A stretch of DNA of 28,651 nucleotides from IMG/VR virus record IMGVR_UViG_3300025120_000383, positions 1 to 28,651 of that record, one strand, 5' to 3'. The translations under genes and the position numbers were made by a program. Position 1 is the first letter of the stretch; every line of letters begins with the position of its first letter. Positions 9,541 through 27,170 of the stretch are shown one piece after another. The DNA is from a virus. Below the pieces are notes generated by a model, which was not told where the DNA came from, made no database searches, and saw nothing but the letters and a program-made list of their open reading frames with translations.

Positions 9541-11487
9541 ATGAATCCATTTCTTCGACCATTATTTAAACCTATTATTAATAAAGCTGCAAGAGCTGCA
9601 TACAAAATGCAAGGCACTGCAGAAGAAGCTGCTAGTAAAGCATTTGAAAAAGCTAGGCCATACGCAAAAAATTACATGGATGCCGCAGCTGGTAACCAAG
9701 GTAGATTTAAACAAGGTGTTGCACTAGGTGGACCACTAGCCGCTTACGGTGTTTTTCCGGAAAGAACTACTACACCAGAAAAAGAAGATGCAGTCATACA
9801 AGAAGATCCAATAGTAAACCCTCCTACACAAGAAGATGATATATTTGTCGATGAGAATCAAGAAAAAGTTTCTGAAGATATAGAAATAAGTGAAGAGGTA
9901 AATGCAACTAATGACCAAGCAGACAATGCAGAAGCTAATACAAAAGCTGTAGTAGATGCTACTAACGCATACGCAGGGTTAATTGAGAACGAAAGCCTTA
10001 CAAGAATAGAAGGTTATAAAGATATTATAAGACAGATAATGGGTGACGGTGACGGCGCACAACAAATGCAAAGCACTGCACTATTAATGCAACTAGGATC
10101 AGCACTTATGTCCGGTAAGTCCTTGGACCCAGGTCTAAAAGGTTTTATGGACATTGTAGGACAAGCAGGAATGCAAGTTGCACCGACACTATTCCAAATG
10201 GGTGTAGAAAAAGGCAAGGCGGAACGTGAGATAGGAGCAGCAGCTCTTAACATGTACATGTCAGAGCTTGATAAAATGCAAGACAGAAGTGGGCCTTTTA
10301 CTGTTGTCTATGAAAACATATACAAAACAAATAAAAAGGGGGAAATGATGTATGACCAAAGTGGCGAACCTATTAGAACAGGAAAAAGAAGATTGCAAAC
10401 TTTCTATCGTCAGAGTCCAGAAGTACAAAACCTTATGAACATAAACAGTGAATTAGGTTATGAAAGATTTACATTTATAGACACAACAGCATCAAAAGAA
10501 GGAATGAATGTTGCTGGTTATGGTGGAGGCACTGCACAGTTCCAAACTGATGCTGCGCAAGCTGATCAATTAAAATATTCTAAATACTTAAAACGTACAC
10601 TTGATACGATGGCTGATTACATCATGCCTATATTAATAGACCAAAAAGATGTAGTGGCAGGTGCAATTGGAGAAATTGGTAGATACGTTGGACCTAAAGT
10701 ATCTTTACTTAATCAATTAATGAGTACTGCTGTTAGTGAAAGTGGTGACTTAAAACAATTTGAAACACAAGCATTTGATTTTGCAAAAGAAATAACTGTG
10801 CCAGAAAGAGCTACTTACCAAATGGATGTGGGTGGTGGCAATACTATTGGTGTATTTGTAGACACAGGTAACAAGTACGGACAAAATGAAGGTGCTAGGT
10901 ATTCTGATGATGGCAAAGAAATGCTTGATCCAGGCACACCGGCAGAAATTGTAGTGTGGGATGACATGAGATTAATTCTTGAAAATCCTAATCGTTCTGC
11001 ATTAATGACATTTGAAACAACACTTGGTCTTGCACTTGCAAGAGACAGACAGCCAACTGGTCGTATGTTAGCAGACGTTCTTCGTAGATCATTTGCAGAT
11101 ACAAGAATGACTGGTTTTGGGGGCACAACATCTACTGATCCAAATCAAGTAATAGAAAACTATGCATTTATATTTAACCAACTATCTAGAAACATGGCTG
11201 GTGCTTTAGAAGGTGCAGGGTTGACAAGTGATTATGATAAATCACAAGAGTTTGGATTAACGTATGCGCCTTATGATTTTGAAGTTAAAGGTTTAAGTAA
11301 ATTTGCTAACTCTTATTACATGTTAAGACATAACGATAGATCAAATTTCTTTAAGCATGATATTGAAGGTGCAGAATTGTACGGTGCATATGCAAATTCT
11401 ATAAGAGGTAATTTAAACGCTGACCACAATGAAAACAAACAAAGTAGTGAAGATATTAAAAACAGTTACTTGGAGCAACTTGAATAA
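9541..11487 (+). CDS. Large putative internal virion protein, 648 aa
   Basis: A 648-aa protein. The first 75 residues are basic and helical (PLFKPIINKAARAAYKMQGT), then residues about 77-130 are strongly acidic (DAVIQEDPIVNPPTQEDDIF; EDIEISEEVNATNDQ). The rest is a mixed helical protein with no catalytic motif I can identify; in particular, I see no lytic transglycosylase signature. Size, position upstream of an even larger partner and TAATG coupling to it (11485-11489) match the paired internal-core proteins of podoviruses that are ejected into the host. The functional assignment is inference. Confidence 0.7.
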   Translation: MNPFLRPLFKPIINKAARAAYKMQGTAEEAASKAFEKARPYAKNYMDAAAGNQGRFKQGVALGGPLAAYGVFPERTTTPEKEDAVIQEDPIVNPPTQEDDIFVDENQEKVSEDIEISEEVNATNDQADNAEANTKAVVDATNAYAGLIENESLTRIEGYKDIIRQIMGDGDGAQQMQSTALLMQLGSALMSGKSLDPGLKGFMDIVGQAGMQVAPTLFQMGVEKGKAEREIGAAALNMYMSELDKMQDRSGPFTVVYENIYKTNKKGEMMYDQSGEPIRTGKRRLQTFYRQSPEVQNLMNINSELGYERFTFIDTTASKEGMNVAGYGGGTAQFQTDAAQADQLKYSKYLKRTLDTMADYIMPILIDQKDVVAGAIGEIGRYVGPKVSLLNQLMSTAVSESGDLKQFETQAFDFAKEITVPERATYQMDVGGGNTIGVFVDTGNKYGQNEGARYSDDGKEMLDPGTPAEIVVWDDMRLILENPNRSALMTFETTLGLALARDRQPTGRMLADVLRRSFADTRMTGFGGTTSTDPNQVIENYAFIFNQLSRNMAGALEGAGLTSDYDKSQEFGLTYAPYDFEVKGLSKFANSYYMLRHNDRSNFFKHDIEGAELYGAYANSIRGNLNADHNENKQSSEDIKNSYLEQLE

Positions 11488-14400
11488 TGGCTAATCCTAA
11501 AAATTCAGCACAAGCTTTTAACGATGCCGTAAGACCTTTTTACGAACACAAAACTGCATACACAGCAGAGAAAGGATTTACAGGAGAAACAACTGAGGGC
11601 GGAGTTCCACAGTCAATAGAAAGACAAAAAATAATGGAGGGCAGAGAAGCTATTGATACAGTTCTTGATGTCCCTATGGCAGCAATTGGTTCTGCTTGGA
11701 ACATACCATTTGGTAAAACAGGATGGCGTTACGGAAAAGACAACTGGATTTTACAATCCAAAGCAGACAAAGAGTTACGAAAAACAGAATTAGCAAACGC
11801 AAGAAATTACCGCGAAAGAAGAGACCGTGTAAGAGATGACATATTAGAAATAGCAAATGCTGCAAAACTTAAATACGAAGCAACAGGCGATAACAAATTT
11901 TTAGATCTAGCTACACAAGCAACAAATGATTTACTTGCTAACGAAGGTCTAACACCAGAAAACGATTACGTTATACTAACACCTGAAGTACAAGATTTAC
12001 GTGATGGCATAGGATTATTTACAAACAATCCTAATCCTTATCCGGCAGTAGAAGCTAGTATGTACATTGGTGGTGGTATTGCAGGATCTGTAAAAGGTGA
12101 AAAACTTGTAAGAGATAAATTTTTAAAAGGTGCAGCAAAGTCATTTGCTAAATCAAAAGGCAATTGGCTTGCAAGATCTATAGGAGCAGTTACCGGTGGA
12201 GCTTTAGCTGTTGGAGTAGCAGACTATGGCTACGAAGGCATGTTAGATCTTATGGACAGAGCCGGTAAAGCAAAAGGATACATGCGTGACCCTAACCAAC
12301 AAGCTAGTCTTGTTGACGCAGCATTAGCATCAGTTGTGCCGGACGCATTAACGTTTGGCCCACAAGGTATTAACAGACCAGAACAAATGGAAAGAATTAA
12401 AAATGCTACGAGTGCGGCGATATGGGATGCAGGATTAACTGCAGGTTTCTTTGCACTTAGACCAGCATTTTATGGTTTAAGAAGAACGATAGGTGGTACC
12501 CCATTTGGTATGTTTAAACAAAAACCTAGTAGGGCACCAGGAGTTGTTAGTGGTAAAGAAATATTAGAAGGTGAACAAAGAATATTAGAACGATGGATGC
12601 CTTCTCAAAGTGAGCTTGATCAAGTTGCAACAAGAGGATTAAAACAACCAAAAGAAAAATTATCTTACAACATGCCATTTGGCTTAGGTAACTTTTTATT
12701 TCGTTTATCTAATTCCAAAGCATTTAATTGGCTTGGCCCACGTGATCCAATAAAACCTGGCACTAACGAATGGTTTCCTGAAGCTGCAGAAATAGGCGGC
12801 ACGATGGTTGCACGTACAAGTGTTGGAGGAGCATTTGGAGGAAGAATAGCAGGGATGTTATCACCAGCTCCTATATTTGGTATTAGTATAAAAAACAACA
12901 TGGCAAAACAAAGTGACTTTTACATTGATGGTGTCATGAGAAAAATGATTGGTGCGTTTGCACCGTATGCACATTTAGATGAAATGGTAGATGACTTTTC
13001 TTTCTTAGCATCTAAAAACTACAGGGGATTTGTTGCACAAGCAAAACAATTAGAAGATGATTTTGTTAAAGCTGCAGAAGGCATGGGCAAAGGTTTTTCT
13101 GATGAAAATTTAGTCAATGTTGCTAAACAAACATTAAGAGAATACGATTTAAAATTACAAAGAGATCCAAGCGGTAATATTATACCATCAGAAGTTCGTG
13201 ATAAATTAATTAATGTTTTAAAAAACCAAATAATAAAACCAGTTGGTGAAGGTAGAACACACGGTTTACGTGACGTTTACCAAATGAAAGGATTACGTGA
13301 ACAAATTGACGATTTACTAGCGCCGCTTAAAGATAAAACATTAGCAGAAACATCTTATGCAGATGATATATCAAGATTAATGAAAGCATGGGAAAATGAT
13401 GTGGCATCAATAGAAAGAATGGGTTACCCTGACGTAGCAAAAGCTTTTGATGCGTATGATAAATTTGTATCATCAGGTTTAATGTTATACGGAACTAACG
13501 TGGGTAAAGCAGCAGCTGGCGGTGAAGTTTCAAAAAGAGGATTTGGAGTTGTACTTAATCAAAGCACGACACGTGCTTCGCATGGTTTATGGGATACAGT
13601 AATTAAATCTGCAAGATCAGGCAATCTTAATAGTAAACAAGAAATACAAGCACTTAGAAGAATTGTAGGTGACCGTGGATATGTAAATGGTTTAGGTGTG
13701 TACATAAGAGATTCATTTGATGCAGCGATAAAAGATAAAGAAGGTGTACAGTTTTTTGATGCAGCAGCATTTAGAGATTCACTTGGCATAGGAACAACTG
13801 GAGCGTTGAATAGATTATTTAAAGAAGCATTACCAGGACCAACAATATCTAAGTTAGAAATATTTGATCCGGCAACAGGAATATTTAAAAAATTTGACGA
13901 TGAAATATATGAAACTGGTGTAAATAAAGGAATAAAAGACATATTAGGGGAAGAAGTTCCTGAAGGAATGACGAAAACAAACGCAACAAGATTACCAACG
14001 TTAGCAGAGTTTGACGATTTAACAAAAGTATTAGAAAAGTTATTTGAAAACGGTGTGCCTAGTGGTTCTAAATACATGATGCGTCGTGCAACAATGTCTG
14101 GAACTAGAGGAGCTGCACGTGCGTTATTGCCGTCAACCGCAATCGGTAAAGGTATAGTTAGCAGAGGTGGTGCAGAAGCTGGTGTAGCACTGATGGGACC
14201 TGTCGTGGCAAGTATTACTGCATTTTTAGTTAACTATGGAGGTAAAGTTTTAACAAACCCAGTTGCTATAAAAGTTCTTAAAAATTTAACTGACGTAAAT
14301 TTACCTAGTACAATTAGACAGGCAAATTTTGCTAGACTAGTTAGAATGTATCCAGAAGAGTTTGCAGCATATGATGCAGATTTAGCAGAAATGGAACAAG

Positions 14401-14879
14401 TACAAAAAGAATACAATAGAAATTCTAGAGTTGCACAAAATGCAAAATCAATAAGGTCAAAAGTTATGGAAGGTGTAGGTGATGCAATAAAACAAGCACC
14501 ATCTGTTCCAGGAAAAATATTTAACAGTCCTCTTAATCCTAATATTTTTGATCTTATACCTAGTCAATCACCACCAGGAGGTGCACCACAGTTTGCACCA
14601 GAAGCACCAGACGCTTCTGTCGGCGGTTATGATTCTGCCAGTGCAGGATCAGTGATAAATAGGAACCAGAATTTTAACCCAGCAGCAGCTGGCGCGTTAT
14701 ATACAGGTAATACGGATGCAGCACTTGCTGCACAGTATGGTGGCGGAACACAATACGCCGCAGGAGGTGGGCTAATGGAAATGAATCCAGTAATGAATAA
14801 CCAAGGTAAATTTAACAAACCACAACGAGGCATGAATGACAATCCGTTTGTTAAAAAAGGCATAGGGAGTTTAGTGTAA
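11487..14879 (+). CDS. Very large putative internal virion/DNA-ejection protein, 1130 aa
   Basis: The largest product in the window. Hydrophobic, potentially membrane-interacting stretches lie near residues 190-250 (AVEASMYIGGGIAGSVKG; RSIGAVTGGALAVGVADYGY) and near 900-920 (VALMGPVVASITAFLVNYGG), separated by long charged helices. The C-terminus is low-complexity Gly/Ala/Pro/Asn (SPPGGAPQFAPEAPDASVGG) and ends with GGGLMEMNPVMNN and KKGIGSLV, related to the GGIASL-type tails of its neighbours. By size and order it resembles the long internal proteins that form an ejection conduit in podoviruses. No enzymatic motif was recognised. Both ends are TAATG-coupled. Confidence 0.72.
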   Translation: MANPKNSAQAFNDAVRPFYEHKTAYTAEKGFTGETTEGGVPQSIERQKIMEGREAIDTVLDVPMAAIGSAWNIPFGKTGWRYGKDNWILQSKADKELRKTELANARNYRERRDRVRDDILEIANAAKLKYEATGDNKFLDLATQATNDLLANEGLTPENDYVILTPEVQDLRDGIGLFTNNPNPYPAVEASMYIGGGIAGSVKGEKLVRDKFLKGAAKSFAKSKGNWLARSIGAVTGGALAVGVADYGYEGMLDLMDRAGKAKGYMRDPNQQASLVDAALASVVPDALTFGPQGINRPEQMERIKNATSAAIWDAGLTAGFFALRPAFYGLRRTIGGTPFGMFKQKPSRAPGVVSGKEILEGEQRILERWMPSQSELDQVATRGLKQPKEKLSYNMPFGLGNFLFRLSNSKAFNWLGPRDPIKPGTNEWFPEAAEIGGTMVARTSVGGAFGGRIAGMLSPAPIFGISIKNNMAKQSDFYIDGVMRKMIGAFAPYAHLDEMVDDFSFLASKNYRGFVAQAKQLEDDFVKAAEGMGKGFSDENLVNVAKQTLREYDLKLQRDPSGNIIPSEVRDKLINVLKNQIIKPVGEGRTHGLRDVYQMKGLREQIDDLLAPLKDKTLAETSYADDISRLMKAWENDVASIERMGYPDVAKAFDAYDKFVSSGLMLYGTNVGKAAAGGEVSKRGFGVVLNQSTTRASHGLWDTVIKSARSGNLNSKQEIQALRRIVGDRGYVNGLGVYIRDSFDAAIKDKEGVQFFDAAAFRDSLGIGTTGALNRLFKEALPGPTISKLEIFDPATGIFKKFDDEIYETGVNKGIKDILGEEVPEGMTKTNATRLPTLAEFDDLTKVLEKLFENGVPSGSKYMMRRATMSGTRGAARALLPSTAIGKGIVSRGGAEAGVALMGPVVASITAFLVNYGGKVLTNPVAIKVLKNLTDVNLPSTIRQANFARLVRMYPEEFAAYDADLAEMEQVQKEYNRNSRVAQNAKSIRSKVMEGVGDAIKQAPSVPGKIFNSPLNPNIFDLIPSQSPPGGAPQFAPEAPDASVGGYDSASAGSVINRNQNFNPAAAGALYTGNTDAALAAQYGGGTQYAAGGGLMEMNPVMNNQGKFNKPQRGMNDNPFVKKGIGSLV

Positions 14880-15421
14880 TGGTTGATGAGATACAAAGAA
14901 GAAAAACACTTTTTAGAGAGCGTGCACCTTATAATCCTAATAGAGAGGTAGAAATATATAGGGAACCTGCACCTAATAATCCTAATAGAGAAAATGCTGT
15001 TTACCCTCTTATGAATAACGCAATTGTTAACACAATTAAAGAAGGATACCAACAGGTTAAACCGTATTTGCCTGACGTAGATATAGGGGACAAATCAATA
15101 GGGTACGACTACGAGAGGCCTATGGGCCCAGGTATTCTTAGCATTGGTGGCGAGTATGATGTTGACGACAATGAATACGGTTTAGATTTTGGATACAAAT
15201 TTGCTTTTGATGATGGTGGCATAGCAACTCTTGCAGGAGATTTAGAACAAAGAATGACACCTTTAGATCCACAAAACATAGAACCTAAAAGATTAACAGA
15301 CGAACAAAAAGATTATTTAATGGATTACATGTTAGACTTTATGTTTAAACAAAAACAAAGAGAGCAAATGGAGAACAAAGGTAGGGTGCCTCCGTTTAAT
15401 TATTTTAATATGGAAGTATGA
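14879..15421 (+). CDS. Hypothetical virion-module protein with NPNRE repeat and GGIATL motif
   Basis: A 180-aa protein. Its N-terminus carries a 15-residue tandem repeat (RERAPYNPNREVEIY then REPAPNNPNRENAVY). The middle, residues about 60-110, is beta-like and acidic (DIGDKSIGYDYERPMGPG; GGEYDVDDNEYGLDFGYKFA), reminiscent of a small barrel segment. GGIATL occurs at residues 113-118, then a charged helical C-terminus rich in Asp, Lys and Met. The start is TAATG-coupled to the 1130-aa gene and the end overlaps the next gene by four bases. No family is recognised; co-occurrence of the GGIA(S/T)L motif suggests it belongs to the same virion subassembly as its neighbours. Confidence 0.7.
   Translation: MVDEIQRRKTLFRERAPYNPNREVEIYREPAPNNPNRENAVYPLMNNAIVNTIKEGYQQVKPYLPDVDIGDKSIGYDYERPMGPGILSIGGEYDVDDNEYGLDFGYKFAFDDGGIATLAGDLEQRMTPLDPQNIEPKRLTDEQKDYLMDYMLDFMFKQKQREQMENKGRVPPFNYFNMEV
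14924..14991 (+). repeat. Two-copy direct repeat, 45-bp spacing, inside coding region
   Basis: The 23-base stretch at 14924-14946 is repeated at 14969-14991 with one mismatch (T at 14930 versus A at 14975). The 45-base offset is a multiple of three, so the reading frame is kept and the protein gains a duplicated APxNPNRE segment. It looks like a recent in-frame tandem duplication. Confidence 0.8.
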
Positions 15422-15621
15422 CCTTTAAAGATGTAATATGGTTAGTTGGTGTTGTCCTAGCTTTAGGCGGAACGTGGGGTATGACTTCACAAAGAGTATC
15501 TGCGTTAGAAAAAGACATGGATAGATTAGAAACATCATTACAATTATTATATTCTATAGATTCACGCATCGCTGTCATAGAGACAGAGATAAAACACATT
15601 AACGAAAAGTTAGACAAGTAA
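15418..15621 (+). CDS. Membrane-anchored coiled-coil protein, possible lysis component
   Basis: A 67-aa protein with one N-terminal transmembrane helix (residues about 5-22, VIWLVGVVLALGGTWGM) followed by a coiled coil with heptad-like hydrophobics (VSALEKDMDRLETSLQLL; IAVIETEIKHINEKLDK). The architecture fits a small phage holin-accessory or inner-membrane spanin-like protein, or an XhlA-like protein with reversed order. No recognisable endolysin lies next to it, so the lysis role is only a hypothesis. The ATG overlaps the preceding stop by four bases (ATGA). Confidence 0.75.
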   Translation: MTFKDVIWLVGVVLALGGTWGMTSQRVSALEKDMDRLETSLQLLYSIDSRIAVIETEIKHINEKLDK

Positions 15622-15640
15622 GGGGCCGCTTGGGGAAAGA

Positions 15641-16171
15641 ATGTACGGTATACTGTCGCTAATTGGGAAAAAATATGGCAAGGATGCGATGCGTCGTGTT
15701 CTTGCTGTAGCCCAAAATTTTCCTGATGATCGTTTTGTTAGATCAATGCGTAGTCCCATGTTTACTAATAGATCTAGGCTTGGGTCTGCGGAAGGCATTA
15801 TGAAAAACGCTTCTAAATATTTAACAGCAGATAATAATCCAACACCTTACAGTGGTATCATGTCAACGCTTCGTGCTAAAATAAATAACGATAACGTTAC
15901 AAAAGATTTAATAAATTATTACAGAAGAAATCCTGCAGAGTACAATAAGTTAAATAAAGCAGGCAGAACGTATTGGGGAGAGTATGGCGGCGAACAATAC
16001 ATAGATGACCTAGCACAAAATGCAATTGGTAAAATGTCAAGAGCAAATTTAATTGGTGATTTACCTCCAACGTTAACAGATTATGAAAAATACATGCTTG
16101 CGTTAGCAAGACAAAGAAGAATGTCTACAAGAAAAAGTGAAAATGTTATTCCCTTTCCAAAGCAGGATTAG
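15641..16171 (+). CDS. Hypothetical basic protein, 176 aa
   Basis: The product is basic and helical, starting MYGILSLIGKKYGKDAMRRV and ending KSENVIPFPKQD. It contains many Arg and Asn residues (NNDNVTKDLINYYRRNPAEY) and a Gly/Tyr patch (AGRTYWGEYGGEQYIDD). GGGGAAAGA just upstream of the ATG can act as ribosome binding site. The size and position after a membrane protein would suit an endolysin, but I see no lysozyme, amidase or peptidase catalytic signature, so I do not call one. It is the last gene of the structural block before the replication promoter. Confidence 0.65.
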   Translation: MYGILSLIGKKYGKDAMRRVLAVAQNFPDDRFVRSMRSPMFTNRSRLGSAEGIMKNASKYLTADNNPTPYSGIMSTLRAKINNDNVTKDLINYYRRNPAEYNKLNKAGRTYWGEYGGEQYIDDLAQNAIGKMSRANLIGDLPPTLTDYEKYMLALARQRRMSTRKSENVIPFPKQD

Positions 16172-16182
16172 TGTGATATAAT
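16154..16182 (+). promoter_or_regulatory. Sigma70-type extended -10 promoter for the nuclease gene
   Basis: TTTCCA at 16154-16159 (4 of 6 matches to TTGACA), a 17-base spacer, then TATAAT at 16177-16182 preceded by TG at 16174-16175 (a perfect extended -10). It lies at the boundary between structural and replication genes. The expected start of transcription, six to eight bases after the -10, falls on or next to the GTG start at 16189. Confidence 0.65.
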
Positions 16183-16188
16183 GCTGCA

Positions 16189-16863
16189 GTGCAAATCGTA
16201 CAGAAATATAATTACGCAGATTTAAAAAGAAAAGACGGTGCAACAAGATTGTATCTTACACCTGAAGGTGAAGCATTACCTTCTGTTACCACAATATTAT
16301 CAAAGACTAAAGACAAGACGTTTTTAAAGGAATGGCGTGCACGTGTGGGAGAAAAACAAGCAGAAAAAATTATCTCTGATTCTTCACAAATTGGAACCGC
16401 GCTCCACCTATATATAGAACATTATGTGAACGAACATGCATACAAGGATCTTACAGATGTGGGCATCCAAGCGGGGAAAATGGCCCAGGTTATTATTGAC
16501 CACGATGACGGGTTAAAAAAAATTAGCGAAGTGTGGGGATCAGAAGTACATTTGTATTATCCTGGTAAGTTTGCAGGCACTACAGATATGGTTGGTGTAT
16601 ATGATGGCAGGCCAACAATTATAGATTTTAAACAAACAAATAGACCAAAGAAAAGAGAATGGGTGCAAGATTATCTAATGCAATTATCTGCATATGCGAT
16701 GGCACACAATAAATTATTTGATACAGAAATAGATCAAGGTGTAGTTCTTATGTGCTCACGTGATTTATTATTTCAAAAGTTTGAGTTAAAAGGTGAGAAT
16801 TTTGTACGCGCAGGCGAAGCTTTTATGAAAAAATTAGATTTGTATTTACAATCTATACTCTAA
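16189..16863 (+). CDS. PD-(D/E)XK exonuclease (MGME1/RecB-nuclease-like)
   Basis: A 224-aa protein with the full PD-(D/E)XK core: GTALHLYIEH at 69-78 (His73), Glu119, Asp133 (AGTTDMVGVYDG), Asp146-Phe-Lys148 (the D-x-K catalytic motif) and Gln165 in the YLMQLSAYA helix. The family degrades DNA ends in recombination or breaks down host DNA. The conserved N-terminal PSVTTILS requires a start near 16189. The only canonical option is GTG, because an in-frame TGA lies at 16174-16176 and the ATG at 16181 is out of frame. No Shine-Dalgarno precedes it, and the promoter -10 ends six bases upstream, so a leaderless mRNA is likely. Its 3' end overlaps the opposing helicase gene by four bases. Confidence 0.88.
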   Translation: MQIVQKYNYADLKRKDGATRLYLTPEGEALPSVTTILSKTKDKTFLKEWRARVGEKQAEKIISDSSQIGTALHLYIEHYVNEHAYKDLTDVGIQAGKMAQVIIDHDDGLKKISEVWGSEVHLYYPGKFAGTTDMVGVYDGRPTIIDFKQTNRPKKREWVQDYLMQLSAYAMAHNKLFDTEIDQGVVLMCSRDLLFQKFELKGENFVRAGEAFMKKLDLYLQSIL

Positions 16864-18296
16864 ATCCAATTAGCTAATTCTTCTCCATTTATTTCACTAG
16901 CAATATTAACTTTATTTCTTAACGCCTGTATTATCTTTTCATCTACAGTTTCTTTTGCCACTAAATCAACATATAATACTGGATTTTTCTGACCTATTCT
17001 GTGCGCCCTATCTTCTGATTGTATTCTTTTTTCTAAATCATAATTATTAGAATAATATATAACTGTGCTAGCTTGTGTTAGTGTAATGCCGTATCCACCT
17101 GTCTGTGTGTTTCCTATAAAAAAACGTACAGGATTTGTTTCGTCTTGAAATTTATTTATACAAGCTTGCCTATCTTCTTGTTTAGTTGCACCATAATAAG
17201 TACAATAAGAATCAAGTCCAAATTCTTTTTTAATCGCATTTTCTATCGTGTTAATGTCGTGTATGTAATTAGCCCAAATTATTGCCTTACCAGTTGTCTC
17301 TCCTAGTATTTGCATTAATTCATCTAATCTAGAATTTTTTAAATTAATAATATCACCACTATCTGTTTTCATGTGACCACAAGTAATTTGGTGTAGTTTT
17401 ATTAATTGTGTTAAAACATTGACAGCTGTTGCAGCTTCTCCTTTTAGTATTGTTATGGCACTTGTCTTCATTTCACTGTAAGCTTTTTTCTGTTCATCAC
17501 TTAGTTCTATAATTCTTTTTGTAAAAATTTTATCAGGTAAATCTAAACAATCTTTTTTTAAAATACGGTATGAATGTGGCGACACTAATTTGCCTAATTC
17601 TTTTAAGTTTTTAAATTTGACTATTTTTTGAAATTTATGAGTGCCTCCTGCTGCACTAGCTGTAATTAGCACAGCATATTTTGTGCGAAAAGCGTAAAAA
17701 CTTTGTTGTCCTAATATTTCTGGTTCTAAAAAATCCATTTGGGACCACAAATCCATAGGAGATTGTGTCACTGGTGAACCTGTTAATATTCTTTTGTAGG
17801 GTGCCTCTTTACTTAATTCTAATATGTTTTTTGTCCTTTTTGCTTGTGGGTTTTTTATTGTTGTGCTCTCATCAATAATCATCATAGCTTTGCTAGACAA
17901 AAATAATTTTGCATAGTAACAACCTTTTTTAGTAGACAATGACTCTACGTTCATAACAAATATTTTTAATTTAAAGTTTTCTGGATTACGTATTGCTTTT
18001 AATTGTAATTCATATTTTTCTGTAATGTTTGGTTTCCAAGCAAGTACATCTTTTTCTATGTAATCGGGAACGTGAACTGGGATTTCTTGATCTACCCAGT
18101 TCATATACGTACCCTTAGGAGCAACTACTAATAATCTGTCTATTCGACCCTTGTTGTATAAAATACAAGCATTGTCTAATGCTATCTTTGTTTTGCCTGT
18201 GCCCATTTCAGCAAAAATAGCAAAAGCTTTTTTATTCCAACACTTCTTCAATGCATCTTTCTGATGCTCAAACGGCTTCGTCTTAAATTTATACAT
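16860..18296 (-). CDS. SNF2-type superfamily 2 helicase/translocase
   Basis: A 478-aa DNA-dependent ATPase on the strand opposite to its neighbours. Seen motifs: Walker A EMGTGKT at 30-36, motif II DEST at 142-145 (IIDESTTIKNPQ), motif III LTGSPVTQSPMDLW, and in the C-terminal RecA domain motif V (QTGGYGITLTQAS) and motif VI (RIQSEDRAHRIGQ) with arginine finger. This is the minimal two-lobe SNF2 core, without extra DNA-binding or nuclease domains. It probably remodels or translocates on DNA during phage replication or recombination. The gene is transcribed leftward from its own promoter and runs into the nuclease gene tail to tail. A short AAAGAAAGA precedes the ATG. Confidence 0.92.
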   Translation of the reverse strand: MYKFKTKPFEHQKDALKKCWNKKAFAIFAEMGTGKTKIALDNACILYNKGRIDRLLVVAPKGTYMNWVDQEIPVHVPDYIEKDVLAWKPNITEKYELQLKAIRNPENFKLKIFVMNVESLSTKKGCYYAKLFLSSKAMMIIDESTTIKNPQAKRTKNILELSKEAPYKRILTGSPVTQSPMDLWSQMDFLEPEILGQQSFYAFRTKYAVLITASAAGGTHKFQKIVKFKNLKELGKLVSPHSYRILKKDCLDLPDKIFTKRIIELSDEQKKAYSEMKTSAITILKGEAATAVNVLTQLIKLHQITCGHMKTDSGDIINLKNSRLDELMQILGETTGKAIIWANYIHDINTIENAIKKEFGLDSYCTYYGATKQEDRQACINKFQDETNPVRFFIGNTQTGGYGITLTQASTVIYYSNNYDLEKRIQSEDRAHRIGQKNPVLYVDLVAKETVDEKIIQALRNKVNIASEINGEELANWI

Positions 18297-18313
18297 TTAG
18301 TCTTTCTTTATTC

Positions 18314-18342
18314 TTGAAATGCATTATATACTATGTTATAAT
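18314..18342 (+). promoter_or_regulatory. Rightward sigma70-type promoter for the replication operon
   Basis: TTGAAA at 18314-18319, a 17-base spacer, and TATAAT at 18337-18342 with an upstream TG at 18334-18335 (extended -10). Predicted transcription start is near 18349, giving a leader of about 13 bases to the ATG at 18362. It would drive the downstream co-directional genes from 18362 to about 27879. Confidence 0.7.
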
Positions 18343-18351
18343 AAGAGTCAA
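18323..18351 (-). promoter_or_regulatory. Leftward sigma70-type promoter for SNF2 helicase
   Basis: On the minus strand: TTGACT (18351-18346), a 17-base spacer, TATAAT (18328-18323). Predicted transcription start is near 18316, giving a leader of about 20 bases. The -35 hexamer contains part of a GAGTC (GANTC) site at 18345-18349. It overlaps the rightward promoter completely. Confidence 0.65.
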
Positions 18352-18361
18352 GAAAGAGAAT

Positions 18362-18670
18362 ATGGCAAAAGTATACATACCGCAAGTAATGGATTATAAC
18401 GTTCGTTCAGCTGAAAAGTTTGGCGATTTAAAAGTTATGTTACCGGACAATAAACAGATGATACTTGCATCTGGACCTTTAACATTTAAACTTAAACAAG
18501 AATTAAAAGAATTTAGTGATGACGACTACTTGCTTTTAATTGGAGACCCTGCTATAATAGCAGTTTGTGGCGCAATTGCTGCAAAGAATAATCGTGGTAA
18601 GTTTAAGGTTCTAAAGTGGGACCGTAACGATAAAAGATACTACGATTTAGAAATAGATTTGAGAGGTTGA
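18362..18670 (+). CDS. Small conserved-type phage protein of unknown function, 102 aa
   Basis: The first gene of the rightward replication operon. The reading frame is open back to a TTG at 18314, but that codon is part of the -35 box and lies upstream of the predicted transcript start, so I place the start at the ATG at 18362. The product begins MAKVYIPQVMDYNVRSAEKF and contains DDDYLLLIGDPAIIAVCGAI and GKFKVLKWDRNDKRYYDLE, a pattern recurrent in marine phages near replication genes but without a known function. No membrane segment or signal peptide is evident. The next gene begins one base after its stop. Confidence 0.8.
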   Translation: MAKVYIPQVMDYNVRSAEKFGDLKVMLPDNKQMILASGPLTFKLKQELKEFSDDDYLLLIGDPAIIAVCGAIAAKNNRGKFKVLKWDRNDKRYYDLEIDLRG

Positions 18671-18671
18671 T

Positions 18672-19238
18672 ATGACAAGTTTAGATCCAAAAGATTTAAT
18701 TATGCAGATGAAAGAAGATGCTGAAACTATACCTGAAGATAACATGGGTAAGATTGGTGCAGTAGCTACTGACATTGCAGAAACAGAAAACGAAATACAA
18801 AAAATAAAAGAACAATTAAAAAGAAAAGAAGACTATAAAACAAAATTATCAGAAGAAGTTTTGCCTAGTCTTTTTTCAGAAGTAGGATTATCAGAATTAA
18901 AATTATCTGATGGCCGTAAAATAAAAGTTTCCGAGTATTACCGTGCAGCTATTAAAGTAGAGAATAGAGATGCAGCGTATACTTGGCTAAGAAACAATGG
19001 ATTTGGTGATCTAGTAAAGAACCAAGTCACTTGTAGCTTTGGAAGGAATGAAGATGAGAAAGCTAGCAGTCTTGTATCTGATCTCTCAGAGAAAGGATTA
19101 GAGCCTGCACAACGCGAGTGGGTCGAACCTTCCACCCTTCGCGCATTCGTCCGTGAACAATATGAAGCAGGTAGAGAACTTCCTATGGATCTTCTTGGTG
19201 CTTATATTGGTCACAAAACAACAATTAAATCTGAATAA
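18672..19238 (+). CDS. Coiled-coil protein of the replication operon, unknown function
   Basis: A 188-aa protein. Residues about 30-60 form a likely coiled coil (ETENEIQKIKEQLKRKEDYK). A compact domain follows (SELKLSDGRKIKVSEYYRAA; RDAAYTWLRNNGFGDLVKNQ), then a conserved-looking tail (LPMDLLGAYIGHKTTIKSE). Similar proteins are found next to SSB-like proteins in many phages, so it may be a recombination or replication accessory, but I cannot name a family. The gene lies eight bases upstream of the SSB-like gene. Confidence 0.75.
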   Translation: MTSLDPKDLIMQMKEDAETIPEDNMGKIGAVATDIAETENEIQKIKEQLKRKEDYKTKLSEEVLPSLFSEVGLSELKLSDGRKIKVSEYYRAAIKVENRDAAYTWLRNNGFGDLVKNQVTCSFGRNEDEKASSLVSDLSEKGLEPAQREWVEPSTLRAFVREQYEAGRELPMDLLGAYIGHKTTIKSE

Positions 19239-19246
19239 GGTAAATT

Positions 19247-20029
19247 ATGAATACTAAAAATGTAAAAACTAAAGATACTTTGGATCTAGCTGTTTTAGCA
19301 GAAGATTCAAAAGCCATGAGTGGTTTTGGTACTATAAACCTTGCAAGAGATACAGCTATTCCTTACATTAGCATCTTGCAAACGTCCAGCCCTCAAGTAA
19401 ATCCATCAAAAGCAGAATATATAGAGTCTGCAAAAGCTGGACAACTGTTCAACACAGTTACACAAGAATCCTTTGATAAACTCGAAGTCATTCCTGTTTT
19501 CTACCACCTCAAATATGTAGAGTGGAAACCTAGAGAACAAGGTGGAGGGTTTATCGACTCACATAATGCCGAAAGCGGTATTATTGGACAAACTAAACGT
19601 GACCCTATGACCGGTAAACAAGTATTGCCAAATGGCAATCATATCGTTCAAACAGCTTATCATTTCGTATTAATGTTAAGTGGTGATGGATACCAAAATG
19701 CTGTGATTAGCATGTCTTCAAGTCAACTCAAAAAGAGTAGACGTTGGAACAGCTTAATGCTATCGCAAAAAATTAAGGGTCCACAGGGTATGTTTACACC
19801 TCCTACGTATGCATTTACTTACAATCTATCGACTGTGAGTGAATCTAACGACAGAGGTAGTTGGTTTGGGTTCTCTATTGAGAAAGGTAACCAGGTAACT
19901 GATGCTTCCATCTATGGTGAAAGCAAAGCTTTTGCACAATCCGCAGCGTCTGGCGCTGTGGACGCAAAACCAGAAACCCCCAAATTAATATCAGAAGTAA
20001 AACCAAGCGAAGAATCAGTACCATTTTAA
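19247..20029 (+). CDS. Single-stranded DNA-binding protein-like
   Basis: A 260-aa protein. The central part shows strands and aromatic residues typical of phage SSB analogues (KLEVIPVFYHLKYVEWKPRE; YHFVLMLSGDGYQNAVISMS; GSWFGFSIEKGN). The C-terminus is flexible and ends KPSEESVPF, resembling the acidic D/E-x-PF tip of SSB proteins that recruits partner enzymes. Its location between an accessory coiled-coil protein and the primase fits an SSB of the replisome. The identification combines tail shape, size and context; I see no unmistakable OB-fold motif. Confidence 0.65.
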   Translation: MNTKNVKTKDTLDLAVLAEDSKAMSGFGTINLARDTAIPYISILQTSSPQVNPSKAEYIESAKAGQLFNTVTQESFDKLEVIPVFYHLKYVEWKPREQGGGFIDSHNAESGIIGQTKRDPMTGKQVLPNGNHIVQTAYHFVLMLSGDGYQNAVISMSSSQLKKSRRWNSLMLSQKIKGPQGMFTPPTYAFTYNLSTVSESNDRGSWFGFSIEKGNQVTDASIYGESKAFAQSAASGAVDAKPETPKLISEVKPSEESVPF

Positions 20030-20054
20030 TAAATAAAAAGGAACTGGAGGGTTC

Positions 20055-21572
20055 GTGGAAGTTGAGAAATTTAAACTTATATTTGAAGGTTTAGATGTAG
20101 CTTATGGTCAGCACCAGCCGAATGGCTCACGTGCTGACGGTAAGCAACAAGGTAAATCTTATATAGTTAGACAGGAAGTTGTAGATGAGCTTTGGCAAAA
20201 ACATTTGGAGGGCGAGGGTCCGTCTCTTGGTATTATTCCTATTAGGGCTGATAATACTACTAAGTGGGGATGCATTGATATTGATAGTTATCCTTTGGAC
20301 CATAGTGCTCTATTCAAAAAAATAAAAAAGTTAAATATACCTTTGGTATACTGCAAATCTAAAAGTGGTGGTGCACATTTATTTTTGTTTATGAAGAAAA
20401 CAATTGCATCAAAATTAATAAGAAATAAATTAACACAGATAGCTGCATTAATAGGTCATTCTACATCAGAAATATTTCCTAAACAATCTAGCATATCATT
20501 AGAAAAAGGTGACTTAGGTAATTTTTTAAATTTACCATATTACAATGGCAATAAGTCAGTGCGTTATGCATTAAAAGAAAACGGCACAACAGCGTCTTTA
20601 GAAGAATTCTATGAAATTTACAGTAGAAACGTTGTAGATAACATAGATGATGTAGGGGGAAAAAATAGTGAAGAAATTATAAAAGATGGACCACCTTGTT
20701 TGCAGGCTCTATGTGGACAAGGTTTTCCTCCTGGTACACGCAATAATGGGTTATTTAATATTGGTGTATATACAAAGAAATTTGATCCAGATAATTGGGA
20801 AAGATTATTAGAAGAGTACAATCAAAAGTATATGCAACCACCGCTAGATCATAAAGAGGTTGCCACAGTTGTAGCACAATTAAATAAAAAAGGTTATCAA
20901 TACAAATGTAAAGACCAACCTATTAGTTCTTTTTGTAATGTAAATGTTTGCAAAACAAGAAAGCACGGTGTTGGTGCAGAGAATGTGTCACAACAATTAG
21001 GATCTTTATCTAAGTTAGAAACAGAACCACCTATATGGTTTTTAGAAATACCTACAGATGATAACGAGCAAGATCTTAAAATACAATTAACAACAGAAGA
21101 ATTACAAATACAAACAAAGTTTCAGAAGAGGGTTATGGAAGTATTGACCATGATGCCTCCTTTGATGAAGGCGTCTGATTGGCAACAATTAGTGAATAGT
21201 AAGATGCAGAGTGCTCTTAAAATTCCTGTGTCAAATGACGGATCTGTGTCCGGCCAGTTTTTAGCTCACCTCCAGGAGTTCTGTACTGGTCGTGCACAGG
21301 GACAAATTAAAGAAGATATACTACTACGTAAACCTTATACAGAAGCTGGTAAAATATACTTTAGACTGCAAGATTTACACGCATATCTTATACGAAATAA
21401 GTTTACACACTACAGTAACACAGGTCAAATTATTGCTGAGTTACGTAAAATAAATGGAGAACATAAATTCTGGAAACTAAAAAACAAGGGAGTTAACACA
21501 TGGGGTGTGCCATCTTTTGACGAACAAGATTCAGAATACGAAGTGAGAAAACAAGATGCCACACCTTTCTAA
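20055..21572 (+). CDS. Archaeo-eukaryotic-type primase (TOTE-like AEP domain)
   Basis: A 505-aa protein. The N-terminal AEP catalytic core has Asp75-Ile-Asp77 (GCIDIDSYP), the metal-binding pair, and S104-G-G-A-H108 (KSGGAHLFLFM), the second AEP motif; GNFLNLPYYNG follows. A second domain begins near residue 215 with Cys residues (CLQALCG) and GTRNNGLFNIGVYTKKF, similar to helical primase C-terminal domains. The remainder is probably DNA- or helicase-interacting. It synthesises primers for phage replication. The start is GTG, supported by CTGGAGG at 20044-20050 four bases upstream. The 3' end overlaps the HNH gene by 17 bases. Confidence 0.82.
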   Translation: MEVEKFKLIFEGLDVAYGQHQPNGSRADGKQQGKSYIVRQEVVDELWQKHLEGEGPSLGIIPIRADNTTKWGCIDIDSYPLDHSALFKKIKKLNIPLVYCKSKSGGAHLFLFMKKTIASKLIRNKLTQIAALIGHSTSEIFPKQSSISLEKGDLGNFLNLPYYNGNKSVRYALKENGTTASLEEFYEIYSRNVVDNIDDVGGKNSEEIIKDGPPCLQALCGQGFPPGTRNNGLFNIGVYTKKFDPDNWERLLEEYNQKYMQPPLDHKEVATVVAQLNKKGYQYKCKDQPISSFCNVNVCKTRKHGVGAENVSQQLGSLSKLETEPPIWFLEIPTDDNEQDLKIQLTTEELQIQTKFQKRVMEVLTMMPPLMKASDWQQLVNSKMQSALKIPVSNDGSVSGQFLAHLQEFCTGRAQGQIKEDILLRKPYTEAGKIYFRLQDLHAYLIRNKFTHYSNTGQIIAELRKINGEHKFWKLKNKGVNTWGVPSFDEQDSEYEVRKQDATPF

Positions 21573-21981
21573 ATATAAATACGGAGATAAAAGAGAAGAT
21601 GGGTACATTTGGGTTGGTATAAGGTATAACAGAAGAAAATCAGACGGAACTTATCCAGATGATTGGAGAAGTCCAGAAGCTTTTAAAGAAAAGATAGAGA
21701 ATAACAGAAAGTGTAAAAAAATAGTGTACGATTTAATTTCAGACGAAGTAAATAATTATAAAATTAATAAAAGTTGTTTTCATTGTGGTTATAACAAAGA
21801 AGCTGTTGCCTTAGATTTTCACCATAAAAACAGAAAAGATAAAATTGTAAATGTTTCTTCTCATTGGAAAACGAGTTGGAAACAATTTGAGAAAATGAAA
21901 AAAGAAATTAAAAAATGTATAGTATTGTGTGCTAATTGTCACAGAATAGAAGAGAAAAGGATTAGAGATGCCAGACGTTAA
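21556..21981 (+). CDS. HNH endonuclease (zinc-binding type)
   Basis: A 141-aa protein. Its C-terminal half holds an HNH nuclease: zinc ligands CFHCGY near residue 75, catalytic DFHHKNR near residue 91, and CIVLCANCHR near residue 120 with the second Cys pair and final His. The N-terminal half (YIWVGIRYNRRKSDGTYPDD) is a small basic beta segment that may bind DNA. HNH proteins in phages act as homing endonucleases or as packaging or replication nucleases. The gene overlaps the primase by 17 bases and the helicase by 14, so it is either an old, tightly integrated insertion or a functional part of the operon. Confidence 0.85.
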   Translation: MPHLSKYKYGDKREDGYIWVGIRYNRRKSDGTYPDDWRSPEAFKEKIENNRKCKKIVYDLISDEVNNYKINKSCFHCGYNKEAVALDFHHKNRKDKIVNVSSHWKTSWKQFEKMKKEIKKCIVLCANCHRIEEKRIRDARR

Positions 21982-23467
21982 TATAATACTAGGGCCACCC
22001 GGCACAGGTAAAACTGAAAACTTACTGCGGATCGTGGACCAGGAACTTAAAAGTGGTACACCACCGGACAGAATTGCATTTGTAAGTTTTACAACAAAAG
22101 CAACAAATGAAGCACGTGATAGAGCAAAAGTAAAATTTAATTTAACTGACAAAGATTTTCCTTATTTTTGTACGCTGCATGCATTTGGTAAAAGACAGAT
22201 GGGATTTACAAAATCAGAGATTATGGACAATAAAGATTACTTAGATTTTTCTGATAAGTATGGTGTAGATTTAAAAAGAGTTACAACTGATTGGGAAGAA
22301 AAAGGTGTTGTGTCTACAGATAATAAATATTTAAGAGATATAAATAAATCAAAGATGCAAGATTTAGAATTACAAGATTTTTACAATGCAGCTAATTTAG
22401 ATTATGCTTGGGAAGAACTGTTGTGGGCTTATCGTTCTTTTGAAGATTATAAACAAACAAATAACAAATTTGATTTTACAGATATGTTGACACAGTTTAC
22501 ACAGTTTGGACACACACCACCTCTTGATGTTGTTATTGTAGATGAAGCACAAGACTTAACAAAGTTACAATGGAGAATGTGTGAAAAGATATGGGCTAAT
22601 TCTAAAAGAGTATACATAAGTGGTGATGATGATCAGGCAATATTTAGATGGGCTGGTGCAGACATTGAGCATTTAATTAAAATGGATGGAAATATAAGTG
22701 TGTTAAATCAATCATATAGAGTTCCTCTTGATGTGCATTTAATAGCAACACAAGTTGTATCAAGAATTAAAAACAGAAGACCTAAAGAATGGGCACCAAG
22801 AGCATACAAGGGAGAAGTTAGATATCATGCATATCCTGGCGCTGTTGATCTTTCTGAGGGTAACTGGTTAGCACTTGCAACATGCAGCTATATGCTAAAT
22901 GATATTGAGGAAGATTTACGTCATTTAGGATTACCTTATACAATTTATGGCAAGACACCTATTAAACAAGATTTATTAAAAGCTGTTAGTGCTTGGAAAA
23001 GATTAAATCATTTTGAGCAATTAAATTACAACGACGTAGCTGCTATTTATGCAAATTTAAAAACAGGCTTTAATGTAAAAAGAGGATACAAAACTTTAAA
23101 AACATTAGAGGAAGGTCAAATGTATAATATAGAATCTTTGTGCATGAATCATGGATTAATAAATGCCGGAATACCCTGGGATGTTGCTTTTACTTCTTTA
23201 AGTGAAAAAGATAAATCATACATAATGTCATTAGAAAAGCATGGAGGATTAGGTGTAGATCCAAAAATAAATTTAAGTACAATACACATGGCAAAAGGTG
23301 GAGAATGTGATAATGTTATGTTGTTGACAGATTTGTCTCGTGCAAATCAAGATGAAATGGAAGTTAGTCCAGATGATACAGACAGAGTTTTTTATGTAGG
23401 TGCAACTCGTGCAAAGAAATCATTACATATTATAAACCCCCAAACAGAGAGAGGATACTTTATATGA
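21968..23467 (+). CDS. UvrD/Rep-like superfamily 1 DNA helicase
   Basis: A 499-aa protein with all main SF1A motifs: Walker A GPPGTGKT at 9-16, motif Ia FVSFTTKATNEAR, motif II DEAQD at 192-196, motif III SGDDDQAIFRWAGAD, motif IV NQSYRVPLDV, motif V STIHMAKGGECDNVMLL, and motif VI VFYVGATRAKK. It unwinds DNA 3'-5' in UvrD relatives. It is shorter than UvrD, with reduced 1B/2B insertions. It may act as replicative or repair helicase, since no DnaB-type helicase is visible in the window. The start lies within the end of the HNH gene, and the stop overlaps the next gene by four bases. Confidence 0.93.
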   Translation: MPDVNIILGPPGTGKTENLLRIVDQELKSGTPPDRIAFVSFTTKATNEARDRAKVKFNLTDKDFPYFCTLHAFGKRQMGFTKSEIMDNKDYLDFSDKYGVDLKRVTTDWEEKGVVSTDNKYLRDINKSKMQDLELQDFYNAANLDYAWEELLWAYRSFEDYKQTNNKFDFTDMLTQFTQFGHTPPLDVVIVDEAQDLTKLQWRMCEKIWANSKRVYISGDDDQAIFRWAGADIEHLIKMDGNISVLNQSYRVPLDVHLIATQVVSRIKNRRPKEWAPRAYKGEVRYHAYPGAVDLSEGNWLALATCSYMLNDIEEDLRHLGLPYTIYGKTPIKQDLLKAVSAWKRLNHFEQLNYNDVAAIYANLKTGFNVKRGYKTLKTLEEGQMYNIESLCMNHGLINAGIPWDVAFTSLSEKDKSYIMSLEKHGGLGVDPKINLSTIHMAKGGECDNVMLLTDLSRANQDEMEVSPDDTDRVFYVGATRAKKSLHIINPQTERGYFI

Positions 23468-23760
23468 TAAATAAAGAAGAAATATTAAAGAAAGCAAAAG
23501 AGCTTGTCACTGGTGACAGGAACGAAACACATGGAGATGCATTTCAAAACCATGCAGAGATTGCAGAATTTTGGAATATATTTTTAGACAAAAAGTTACA
23601 ACCAATGGCTAATATTACAGCAGAAGATGTAGCGTTGATGATGGTGTTACTAAAAATATCAAGACACACACAAGGAACAAAAAACAATTTGGATAACTTC
23701 ATAGATATGTGTGGTTATGCAGCTATAGCAGGGGAAATTAATGAATCAGGATCTATTTAG
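23464..23760 (+). CDS. DUF6378-type small phage protein
   Basis: A 98-aa protein with a pattern I associate with DUF6378: AKELVTGDRNETHGDAFQNH, EFWNIFLDKK, DVALMMVLLKISRH and a C-terminal DNFIDMCGYAAIAGE. The all-helical sequence with conserved Asp, Glu and His is reminiscent of small MazG-like nucleotide pyrophosphohydrolases, but activity is unproven. Position directly before DNA polymerase (20-base overlap) suggests a role in nucleotide metabolism or replication. The start overlaps the helicase stop (ATGA). Confidence 0.75.
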   Translation: MINKEEILKKAKELVTGDRNETHGDAFQNHAEIAEFWNIFLDKKLQPMANITAEDVALMMVLLKISRHTQGTKNNLDNFIDMCGYAAIAGEINESGSI

Positions 23761-25606
23761 AAAAGACGAAGTAAAAGCAGAGTGGTTACACCCCACAGAA
23801 ACACCTTCAATGAAAGGTAAAGACGTGGTGGCTATTGACTTGGAGACGTGTGATACAGAATTAAAAAAAATGGGTCCAGGATGGCCTAGAAAAATAGGAT
23901 CTGTTATAGGTATTGCCATATCCAGTGGTGACTTTACTGCTTACTATCCCATAGCGCATGAGGGTGGCGGTAACATGGATAAATCAGTTATTGTGGATTA
24001 CATTAAAGAAGTATGTGAGGACGAATCTATACAAAAAGTATTTCATAACGCACAGTATGACATTGGGTGGTTATCTACTTTAGGGATAGAAGTAAAAGGA
24101 TACATACACGACACCATGATAGCTGCTGCATTATTAAATGAGAATAGATATTCTTTTACATTAAATAGCATGGTAGCAGAGTATTTAGGTGAGTTTAAAA
24201 ATGAATCATTATTAAAAGCCAAAGCAGAAGAGCTAGGTTTAGATCCTAAAGCTGACATGTACAAGATGCACGCATCATTTGTTGGAGAATATGCAGAGGC
24301 TGACGCTAGATTGACATGGCGTTTACACGAGAGATTTATTACAGAAATAGAAAAAGAAGATTTAACAAAAGTATATGACATAGAATGCAGATTAATACGT
24401 GTTATATTTAACATGACTAAACGTGGTGTACGCGTAGACATGGACAAAGCATTTGGTCTTAAAAAGAAATTACTTAACAAAGAAAAACAATATTTAAAAA
24501 GAATAAAAGATTTAGTAGGTCAAGATGTACAAATCAATGCAGCACGGTCTGTGGCCCAGGCATTTGACAGCGTTAATTTAGAGTATCCTAGAACAGAACT
24601 TGGAGCTCCTAGTTTTACACAAACATTTCTTGAAACACATGCGCATGAATTACCACGCATGATAACAAAGGCACGTGTGTTAAATAAATTACAAGGAACG
24701 TTCGTTGATGGTGTTGCTAGATATGTACACAATGGTAGATTACATGCACATATAAACCAAATACGTGGTGATAACGGTGGCACAGTAACAGGTAGATTTT
24801 CTATGTACGCTCCTAATTTACAACAGATGCCTATAAGAAACGAATACGGATCAGAGTTGCGTAAAATATTTATACCAGAAGAAGGAGAGTATTGGTTGTC
24901 TGCTGATTACTCACAGCAAGAACCTAGGATATTAACACATTTTGCCATATTAAATAAAAATGCAGGAGCAGAAGAGGTGCAACAAGCATTTATAAAAGGA
25001 TTAGACTTTCATAAACAGACAGCAGAAATGGCAGGAATTGATCGTAGGTTAGCTAAAACAATAGGTCTAGGGGTAATGTATGGCATGGGGTATAAAAAGA
25101 TGGCTATAGACTTAGATATAGCCCCTACAGAGGCAAAAGACATGTTAAAAGAGTTTAGACAAAAAGTTCCTTTTATGCAGGGCATGTTAGAAGCTGTGAT
25201 GAACCGTGCAAATCAAATAGGATCTGTGCGAACATATCTAGGACGTAGATGTAAATTTGATCTATGGGAACCTGCTTGGTATGAGGCTGGTGTATTTCAC
25301 AAAGCATTGCCACATAATGAAGCAACAACAAAATGGGGTGGTTCTATAAAAAGAGCTGGAACATACAAAGCATTAAACAGATTAATACAGGGCACAGCTG
25401 CGGATCAAACTAAAAAAGCCATGGTTGATATATACGAGCAATTAGGTATAATACCTCTCATACAGGTTCATGATGAGTTGAACTGTAGCGTAAAATCTGA
25501 TAAAGAGGCAAAAGAAATAAAAGATATGATGGAAACATGTATAGATTTAAAGGTGCCATCTAATGTTGATTACAAAATTAAAGATAACTGGGGAGACGCT
25601 AAATGA
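23741..25606 (+). CDS. polA: Family A DNA polymerase with 3'-5' exonuclease domain
   Basis: A 621-aa protein. The DnaQ-like proofreading domain shows Exo I DLET (Asp33, Glu35), Exo II HNAQYDIGW and Exo III YAEADARL, all intact. The polymerase domain has motif A with Asp389 (SADYSQQEPRIL), motif B R435-x3-K439-x3-L443-x3-Y447-G, and motif C His577-Asp-Glu (QVHDELNC). There is no 5'-3' exonuclease domain, as usual for phage polymerases. The residue equivalent to E. coli Phe762 is Leu443, a variant linked to slower, more accurate synthesis and often to temperate phages. The start lies in the end of the preceding gene and the stop overlaps the next ATG (ATGA). Confidence 0.96.
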   Translation: MNQDLFRKDEVKAEWLHPTETPSMKGKDVVAIDLETCDTELKKMGPGWPRKIGSVIGIAISSGDFTAYYPIAHEGGGNMDKSVIVDYIKEVCEDESIQKVFHNAQYDIGWLSTLGIEVKGYIHDTMIAAALLNENRYSFTLNSMVAEYLGEFKNESLLKAKAEELGLDPKADMYKMHASFVGEYAEADARLTWRLHERFITEIEKEDLTKVYDIECRLIRVIFNMTKRGVRVDMDKAFGLKKKLLNKEKQYLKRIKDLVGQDVQINAARSVAQAFDSVNLEYPRTELGAPSFTQTFLETHAHELPRMITKARVLNKLQGTFVDGVARYVHNGRLHAHINQIRGDNGGTVTGRFSMYAPNLQQMPIRNEYGSELRKIFIPEEGEYWLSADYSQQEPRILTHFAILNKNAGAEEVQQAFIKGLDFHKQTAEMAGIDRRLAKTIGLGVMYGMGYKKMAIDLDIAPTEAKDMLKEFRQKVPFMQGMLEAVMNRANQIGSVRTYLGRRCKFDLWEPAWYEAGVFHKALPHNEATTKWGGSIKRAGTYKALNRLIQGTAADQTKKAMVDIYEQLGIIPLIQVHDELNCSVKSDKEAKEIKDMMETCIDLKVPSNVDYKIKDNWGDAK

Positions 25607-26676: not shown

Positions 26677-26677
26677 A

Positions 26678-26875
26678 ATGAAAGAAAAAATATTAGAGAG
26701 AAAAAAAGAATTAGAAAAACAAATGACTGATCTTGTTAACAATATTAACAAAGGAAGAGATGCAATTCGAAACATGGAGTCAAGTGTTGGACAAGTTCAA
26801 GGGGCAATACAACAATGTAATTGGACAATAGATCAAATGGAGTTGACAGATGACAAATCATTGGCGAAAAAATGA
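26678..26875 (+). CDS. Small coiled-coil protein, 65 aa
   Basis: The product, starting MKEKILERKKELEKQMTDLV, is almost entirely one predicted coiled coil rich in Lys, Glu, Gln and Asn. The frame is open upstream to 26618, but the ATG at 26678 lies one base after the preceding stop and has GTGGAG upstream, so it is preferred. It overlaps the next gene by 26 bases. Function is unknown. Confidence 0.65.
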   Translation: MKEKILERKKELEKQMTDLVNNINKGRDAIRNMESSVGQVQGAIQQCNWTIDQMELTDDKSLAKK

Positions 26876-27170
26876 AGAAATGGCCGTTTGGGGCTATGAC
26901 AAAAAAACCAAGGGTTTCCGCCAAATAAAAGAGGCCATAAAGGCACCGCTAGCGGGGTTTAAACTAATGACCCGGGTGATTGTATGGTCTGTTTTAGTCG
27001 GTTTTTACTTTTTTATCTTTGTTTTGCTTGTTTCTGGTTGTTCGTACATAAAAAAGAATAACGATGAAATTAAAATTACAGATTTACCTCCGATTGAATA
27101 CAAAGAACCTGTTGTTGATAAAATAAATATTGTTTCATGTATAAAAATGTTGCCGGAATGTAATGTCTAA
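26850..27170 (+). CDS. Membrane/lipoprotein candidate with two possible starts
   Basis: A 106-aa ORF with a hydrophobic segment at residues 43-62 (IVWSVLVGFYFFIFVLL) ending in a lipobox, LVSGC (Cys64). From the first ATG the hydrophobic segment would be preceded by 39 mostly basic cytoplasmic residues. Starting at the in-frame ATG at 26967 (Met40) gives a classic lipoprotein signal peptide (Arg near the N-terminus, hydrophobic core, Cys at position 25) and a 67-aa precursor. The mature part (SYIKKNNDEIKITDLPPIEY and two more Cys near the end) is short and polar. It could be an outer-membrane spanin-like or envelope protein; no partner is identified. Confidence 0.65.
   Translation: MTNHWRKNEEMAVWGYDKKTKGFRQIKEAIKAPLAGFKLMTRVIVWSVLVGFYFFIFVLLVSGCSYIKKNNDEIKITDLPPIEYKEPVVDKINIVSCIKMLPECNV

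Follow-up and report, generated by a model that had tools for sequence, protein, structure and literature searches.

A compact, probably bidirectional promoter between the helicase gene and the replication operon of a virus related to pelagiphages

The window analysed here is a virus record of 28,651 bases. At 18297-18361, a space of exactly 65 bp separates the start codons of an SNF2 helicase gene, transcribed leftward, and of a replication operon, transcribed rightward. We conclude that this space probably holds a compact bidirectional promoter for the host housekeeping RNA polymerase, which would co-express the helicase and the operon. Four things seen directly bear on this reading: the sequence, its position, a statistical excess, and promoter matches that relatives conserve on both strands despite changes of geometry. 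The hexamers listed below were located by sequence inspection and agree with the scoring and with the relatives; the starts follow the usual rule of 7 bp downstream of the -10 box.

18297-18361, no strand: divergent intergenic region with the predicted bidirectional promoter; gap kept at ~45-75 bp in relatives
18314-18319, + strand: rightward -35, TTGAAA
18337-18342, + strand: rightward -10, TATAAT, 17-bp spacer, extended -10 with TG at 18334-18335
18346-18351, - strand: leftward -35, TTGACT (read 18351-18346)
18323-18328, - strand: leftward -10, TATAAT (read 18328-18323), 17-bp spacer
18349, + strand: predicted rightward start, inside the leftward -35
18316, - strand: predicted leftward start, inside the rightward -35
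16860-18296, - strand: SNF2-type DNA helicase (Pfam SNF2-rel_dom, 2e-24, plus Helicase_C; PHROG 62 DNA helicase)
18362-18670, + strand: Pam3_gp32 family protein, first gene of the rightward operon (PF23992, 1.7e-28)
18672-20029, + strand: Pam3 gp33-like DUF7307 and Pam3_Gp34 proteins, operon genes two and three (family matches)
20055-25606, + strand: replication genes for an AEP-type primase, an HNH-like ORF, a UvrD helicase, a DUF6378 protein and a putative DNA polymerase I (family matches; the polymerase was read from its translation, not from the profile library)

The two -10 boxes lie 8 bp apart, and both -35/-10 spans interleave within 38 bp, with an overlap of 20 bp measured from -10 to -10. 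The predicted starts are separated by 33 bp. The -10 is extended on the rightward side only, the leftward promoter having GT instead of TG before its box. The first-pass annotation had described two promoters here, both with 17-bp spacing, and had set each start on the -35 region of the other; the former is plain from the sequence, and the latter holds for the predicted starts. When the window was scored with a weight matrix set by hand and the consensus of E. coli sigma-70, which may not fit the promoters of the host fully, both promoters reached 11/12; they are two of the three 11/12 matches in 10001-28651 and head the list. Promoter-like matches as a class are not above chance in that region (57 found vs 70 expected). 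This is the strongest of the interleaved pairs in the whole window and the only one whose two promoters both reach 11/12; among 120 dinucleotide shuffles none equalled it, against a rate of 0.075 per shuffle when 10/12 was accepted.

The closest named phages by helicase identity are 023Pt_psg01 (54%) and Pelagibacter phage HTVC027P (51%), a kinship that points to a likely pelagibacter-like host. HTVC027P encodes no RNA polymerase and depends on that of its host (PMC12753301). Several other features of the record were noted. The ends of the helicase gene (-) and of a PD-(D/E)XK exonuclease-like gene (+) overlap by 4 bp at 16860-16863, and with no good terminator detected in the vicinity, leftward transcripts may continue antisense into the exonuclease gene and the late genes. 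Just upstream of this exonuclease-like gene at 16189, the sequence TTTCCA-17-TATAAT with an extended -10 (16154-16182, +) is likely a second promoter. Farther along the + strand lie a gene at 25603-26676 with a weak PAPS-reductase-domain match (E 0.0069, below the cut-off) and a SufE-family gene for Fe-S metabolism at 27463-27879 (Pfam E 2.4e-32), here carried in a phage genome.

Loci for comparison were gathered around the gp32 homologue and via three helicase queries, and belong to relatives of HTVC023P-type pelagiphages; many of them are near-copies, and sequence counts are not counts of independent events. The divergent helicase/replication pair recurs in these relatives, usually with a gap of ~45-75 bp. 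The best promoter per strand was scored in 137 distinct gaps, each against 100 dinucleotide shuffles, and most gaps retained strong promoter matches on both strands. Both hexamer sets are thus kept in relatives, and the adverse outcome named by the first-pass annotation, that only one promoter would be conserved, did not occur. Conservation of the pair is strongest in the L108 clade and weaker in the HTVC027P clade. In the clade of the window, the weaker promoter of each gap averages 8.5 bits compared with 4.0 for shuffles, 74% beat the shuffles at 0.05, and the -10 boxes are exactly 8 bp apart in 32 of 43 gaps; a subgroup (e.g. L304, L317 and L298) has a weak -10, and its weaker side does no better than shuffles. 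The corresponding mean in the L108 clade is 10.3 bits vs 3.5, with all 57 of 57 at or below 0.05, and its members usually place their -10 boxes 8 or 11-13 bp apart, with 12, 8 or 11 bp in most. In both directions, five members of this clade (L118-L122) carry TTGACA-17-TATAAT with TG before the -10, i.e. the full consensus. Members of the HTVC027P clade mostly have -10 boxes that share 2 bp, giving a common TATATAAT-like core; the weaker promoter averages 5.7 bits vs 3.1 and 59% beat the shuffles, and in several members the rightward promoter is weak too.

TG is present on both sides in many relatives, and the 8-bp form then often reads as two extended -10 motifs back to back, ATTATAnCA-NN-TGnTATAAT, which offers a simple account of the 8-bp spacing. 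When the tree was labelled, 34 rows fell under 'other', many of them interleaved in the same way, with a spacer of 16 bp or one weaker box, so that counts of change on the tree allow no close reading. In several relatives (L008, L044, L067, L070 and L071), the helicase is separated from the element by a leftward gene that weakly matches Pyr_excise (pyrimidine dimer glycosylase); the element remains at the divergence point despite this insertion.

Because strength is conserved on both sides, we prefer co-expression to a choice between sides. Two near-consensus promoters of the sigma-70 type, interleaved on 38 bp with each -35 overlapping the opposite start, would let a single polymerase load either way, start and clear within seconds, leaving the site free for either direction. 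One short element would in this manner serve the helicase on the left and the replication operon on the right, probably for an early-to-middle programme of DNA replication. Competition between the two orientations would set the left/right ratio and would not form a switch. Activity, timing, steric exclusion and competition as the setter of the ratio are the parts of the model that we infer. The published account of the HTVC027P RNA-seq gives no time class for the helicase or for the first operon genes in its text (PMC12753301). With phage boxes this close to consensus, competition could be stronger here than in the E. coli cases, and would then fix the ratio and perhaps also reduce noise.

A version of this reading that stands only slightly short of even chances is pure compactness, in which two independent promoters occupy a short gap and their overlap has no regulatory consequence. 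Gaps of this length leave no room for two separate promoters and their leaders, and the offset of the -10 boxes varies (8 bp, 11-13 bp, or an overlap), as compactness would allow. However, this version is compatible with the bidirectional promoter and differs only on whether the overlap matters; moreover, the interleaved form is kept in relatives that have extra flanking genes, though these insertions leave the gap itself unrelaxed. At the other end, the phage family might have kept a polymerase-sharing two-way promoter as the starting point of replication while rebuilding its inner geometry, from shared -10 boxes to full interleaving with boxes 8 or 11-13 bp apart or the reverse, with the overlap and the steric competition of two near-consensus promoters themselves under selection, fixing the ratio of helicase to replisome and damping noise without a regulator. 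We regard this stronger proposal as rather unlikely.

Less probable still is that the dyad is mainly an operator for a dimeric regulator, of phage or host, that represses or activates both directions. Conservation of the element is highest in its TTGAC...GTCAA inverted repeats, the arms of the 34-bp form are near-perfect over 11 bases, and divergent pairs elsewhere often share an operator, such as pLS20 Pr/Pc (PMC4207663). A dimeric regulator should, however, have preserved the spacers as well. The 34-bp elements, 26 in number, mostly hold 1.5-2.0 bits of information per column in their boxes, compared with 0.2-0.5 bits at several columns in the centre; the hexamers are thus near-invariant, whereas the central part drifts. 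Furthermore, in 31 distinct elements the dyad agreement at three -35/-10 spacer positions is 0.32, 0.26 and 0.35 compared with 0.34, 0.31 and 0.26 expected, so that symmetry does not extend beyond the promoter hexamers. We therefore take the palindrome to be the product of two opposed promoters and reject the operator as the main reading. The spacing of the arms also varies by clade as promoter geometry permits, and a GANTC site of the GcrA/CcrM type occurs in only 15/43, 1/57 and 0/37 relatives. A regulator site may still overlap the promoters.

In the window itself, GAGTC covers the leftward -35. A 63-aa ORF at 27275-27466 (+) weakly matches two regulators, GcrA of the cell cycle (Pfam E 0.0057, below the cut-off) and the 'D5-like' regulator of PHROG 323; judged by these matches, it is a possible phage-encoded sigma-70 cofactor. 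A GcrA/CcrM link was considered from the GAGTC over the -35 and this weakly GcrA-like ORF, yet it was set aside as GANTC is not conserved in relatives.

The first-pass annotation had proposed that each DNA molecule would express either the helicase or the replication operon, making the element a potential bistable or timing switch, which we consider very improbable. Its starting point, that polymerase cannot occupy both promoters simultaneously, agrees in principle with experiments on E. coli bidirectional promoters (PMC12825309). RNA polymerase is very likely unable to take both orientations at once here, where the geometry makes double occupancy implausible. Both promoters are also near consensus, where competition is expected, and Warman et al. 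2026 found one side repressed when the other was strongly activated (PMC12825309). Mutually exclusive expression does not follow, because exclusion lasts only while one polymerase occupies the promoter, and clearance resets the choice in every round. The divergent partners in E. coli are made independently, with no mutual effect unless one direction is strongly activated, and at none of the five promoters that Warman et al. 2026 tested was basal transcription high enough for competition (PMC12825309). In the phages, both sides stay strong together in evolution, with no trade-off between them. Bistability requires feedback, and no feedback regulator acting on the pair was recognised: profile searches of the two flanking genes (SNF2 helicase and Pam3_gp32) matched no regulator family, though a regulator may be encoded beyond the 28.6-kb record or be of an unrecognised kind. 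The bistable or timing role was accordingly not borne out.

A replication origin or other non-promoter element at the divergence point is exceedingly unlikely: an AT-rich dyad does adjoin the replication genes, but the GC skew shows no lasting change of sign here, for which the origin was rejected, its sole dip tracks the strand of the helicase gene, and what is conserved is the hexamers of promoters, set as far apart as promoters require. No known RNA family or tRNA was found at the element.

To look beyond the family, IMG/VR was scanned with a pattern for the strict 38-bp element, TTGAN5ATTATAN8TATAATN5TCAA. It occurred in 30 contigs, 24 of which carry it beside homologues of this helicase and the other six elsewhere; in IMG/VR the strict element is thus essentially specific to the helicase locus. 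A stricter scan of genomes from 84,980 species gave 7 sites, of which five lie on Treponema contigs (L358, L359 and L361-L363). These hold the exact 38-bp two-way pattern upstream of an HxlR-like regulator gene, with a divergent gene on the other side that is flavoreductase-like in most (gene names were read from the translations). As both the genes and the host are unrelated, the Treponema element is apparently an independent occurrence, which indicates that the architecture arises elsewhere too, again between divergent genes. A near-perfect palindromic form of the two-way pattern was also seen at 13768-13805 of an unrelated phage contig (L112).

Bidirectional promoters have been seen as widespread only recently, and polymerase competition has been studied on a handful of E. 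coli examples. The family described here is a natural series of two-way promoters in marine phages, with three inner geometries and one gene context, and some of its members match the consensus fully on each strand; such a series makes selection on the overlap itself directly testable. In phages with a largely unmapped transcription programme, the element also marks what is likely a main promoter.

The founding paper on bidirectional promoters is that of Warman et al. 2021. Like the window element, the bacterial examples are short pseudo-symmetric stretches of DNA on which polymerase can bind either way to give divergent transcripts, which in the window are predicted (PMC12825309, PMC10268837); they often lie between divergent mRNAs, as at the window locus. 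They are defined by a shared, near-symmetric -10 and starts 7-25 bp apart, most commonly 18 bp (Middlemiss et al. 2023, PMC10268837). In contrast, each promoter of the window has its own -10, the two boxes being 8 bp apart, and the predicted starts, at 33 bp, lie outside the range; overlapping -10 boxes are confined to the HTVC027P clade, whose members appear to resemble the bacterial promoters in this respect. The pLS20 Pr/Pc pair likewise has two divergent promoters on the same DNA, but these are of unequal strength and a site-encoded regulator makes the switch, whereas both are strong in the window and no regulator was recognised (PMC4207663). Among named phages, HTVC027P, HTVC023P and 023Pt_psg01 share the divergent helicase/replication junction with the window, and several GenBank records of HTVC023P-type pelagiphages are cut open at it. 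Unlike the window, HTVC027P has a -10 of the shared type, and HTVC023P has no obvious match in the portion of sequence examined. Other overlapping promoter pairs include Tn10 tetA/tetR and phage P22 ant/mnt. With two opposed -35/-10 pairs inside the 15-19 bp spacing range and overlapping footprints, the window element is, judged by its motifs, a member of the general class of overlapping divergent sigma-70 promoters; such promoters are already known, and this one is a well-conserved phage example.
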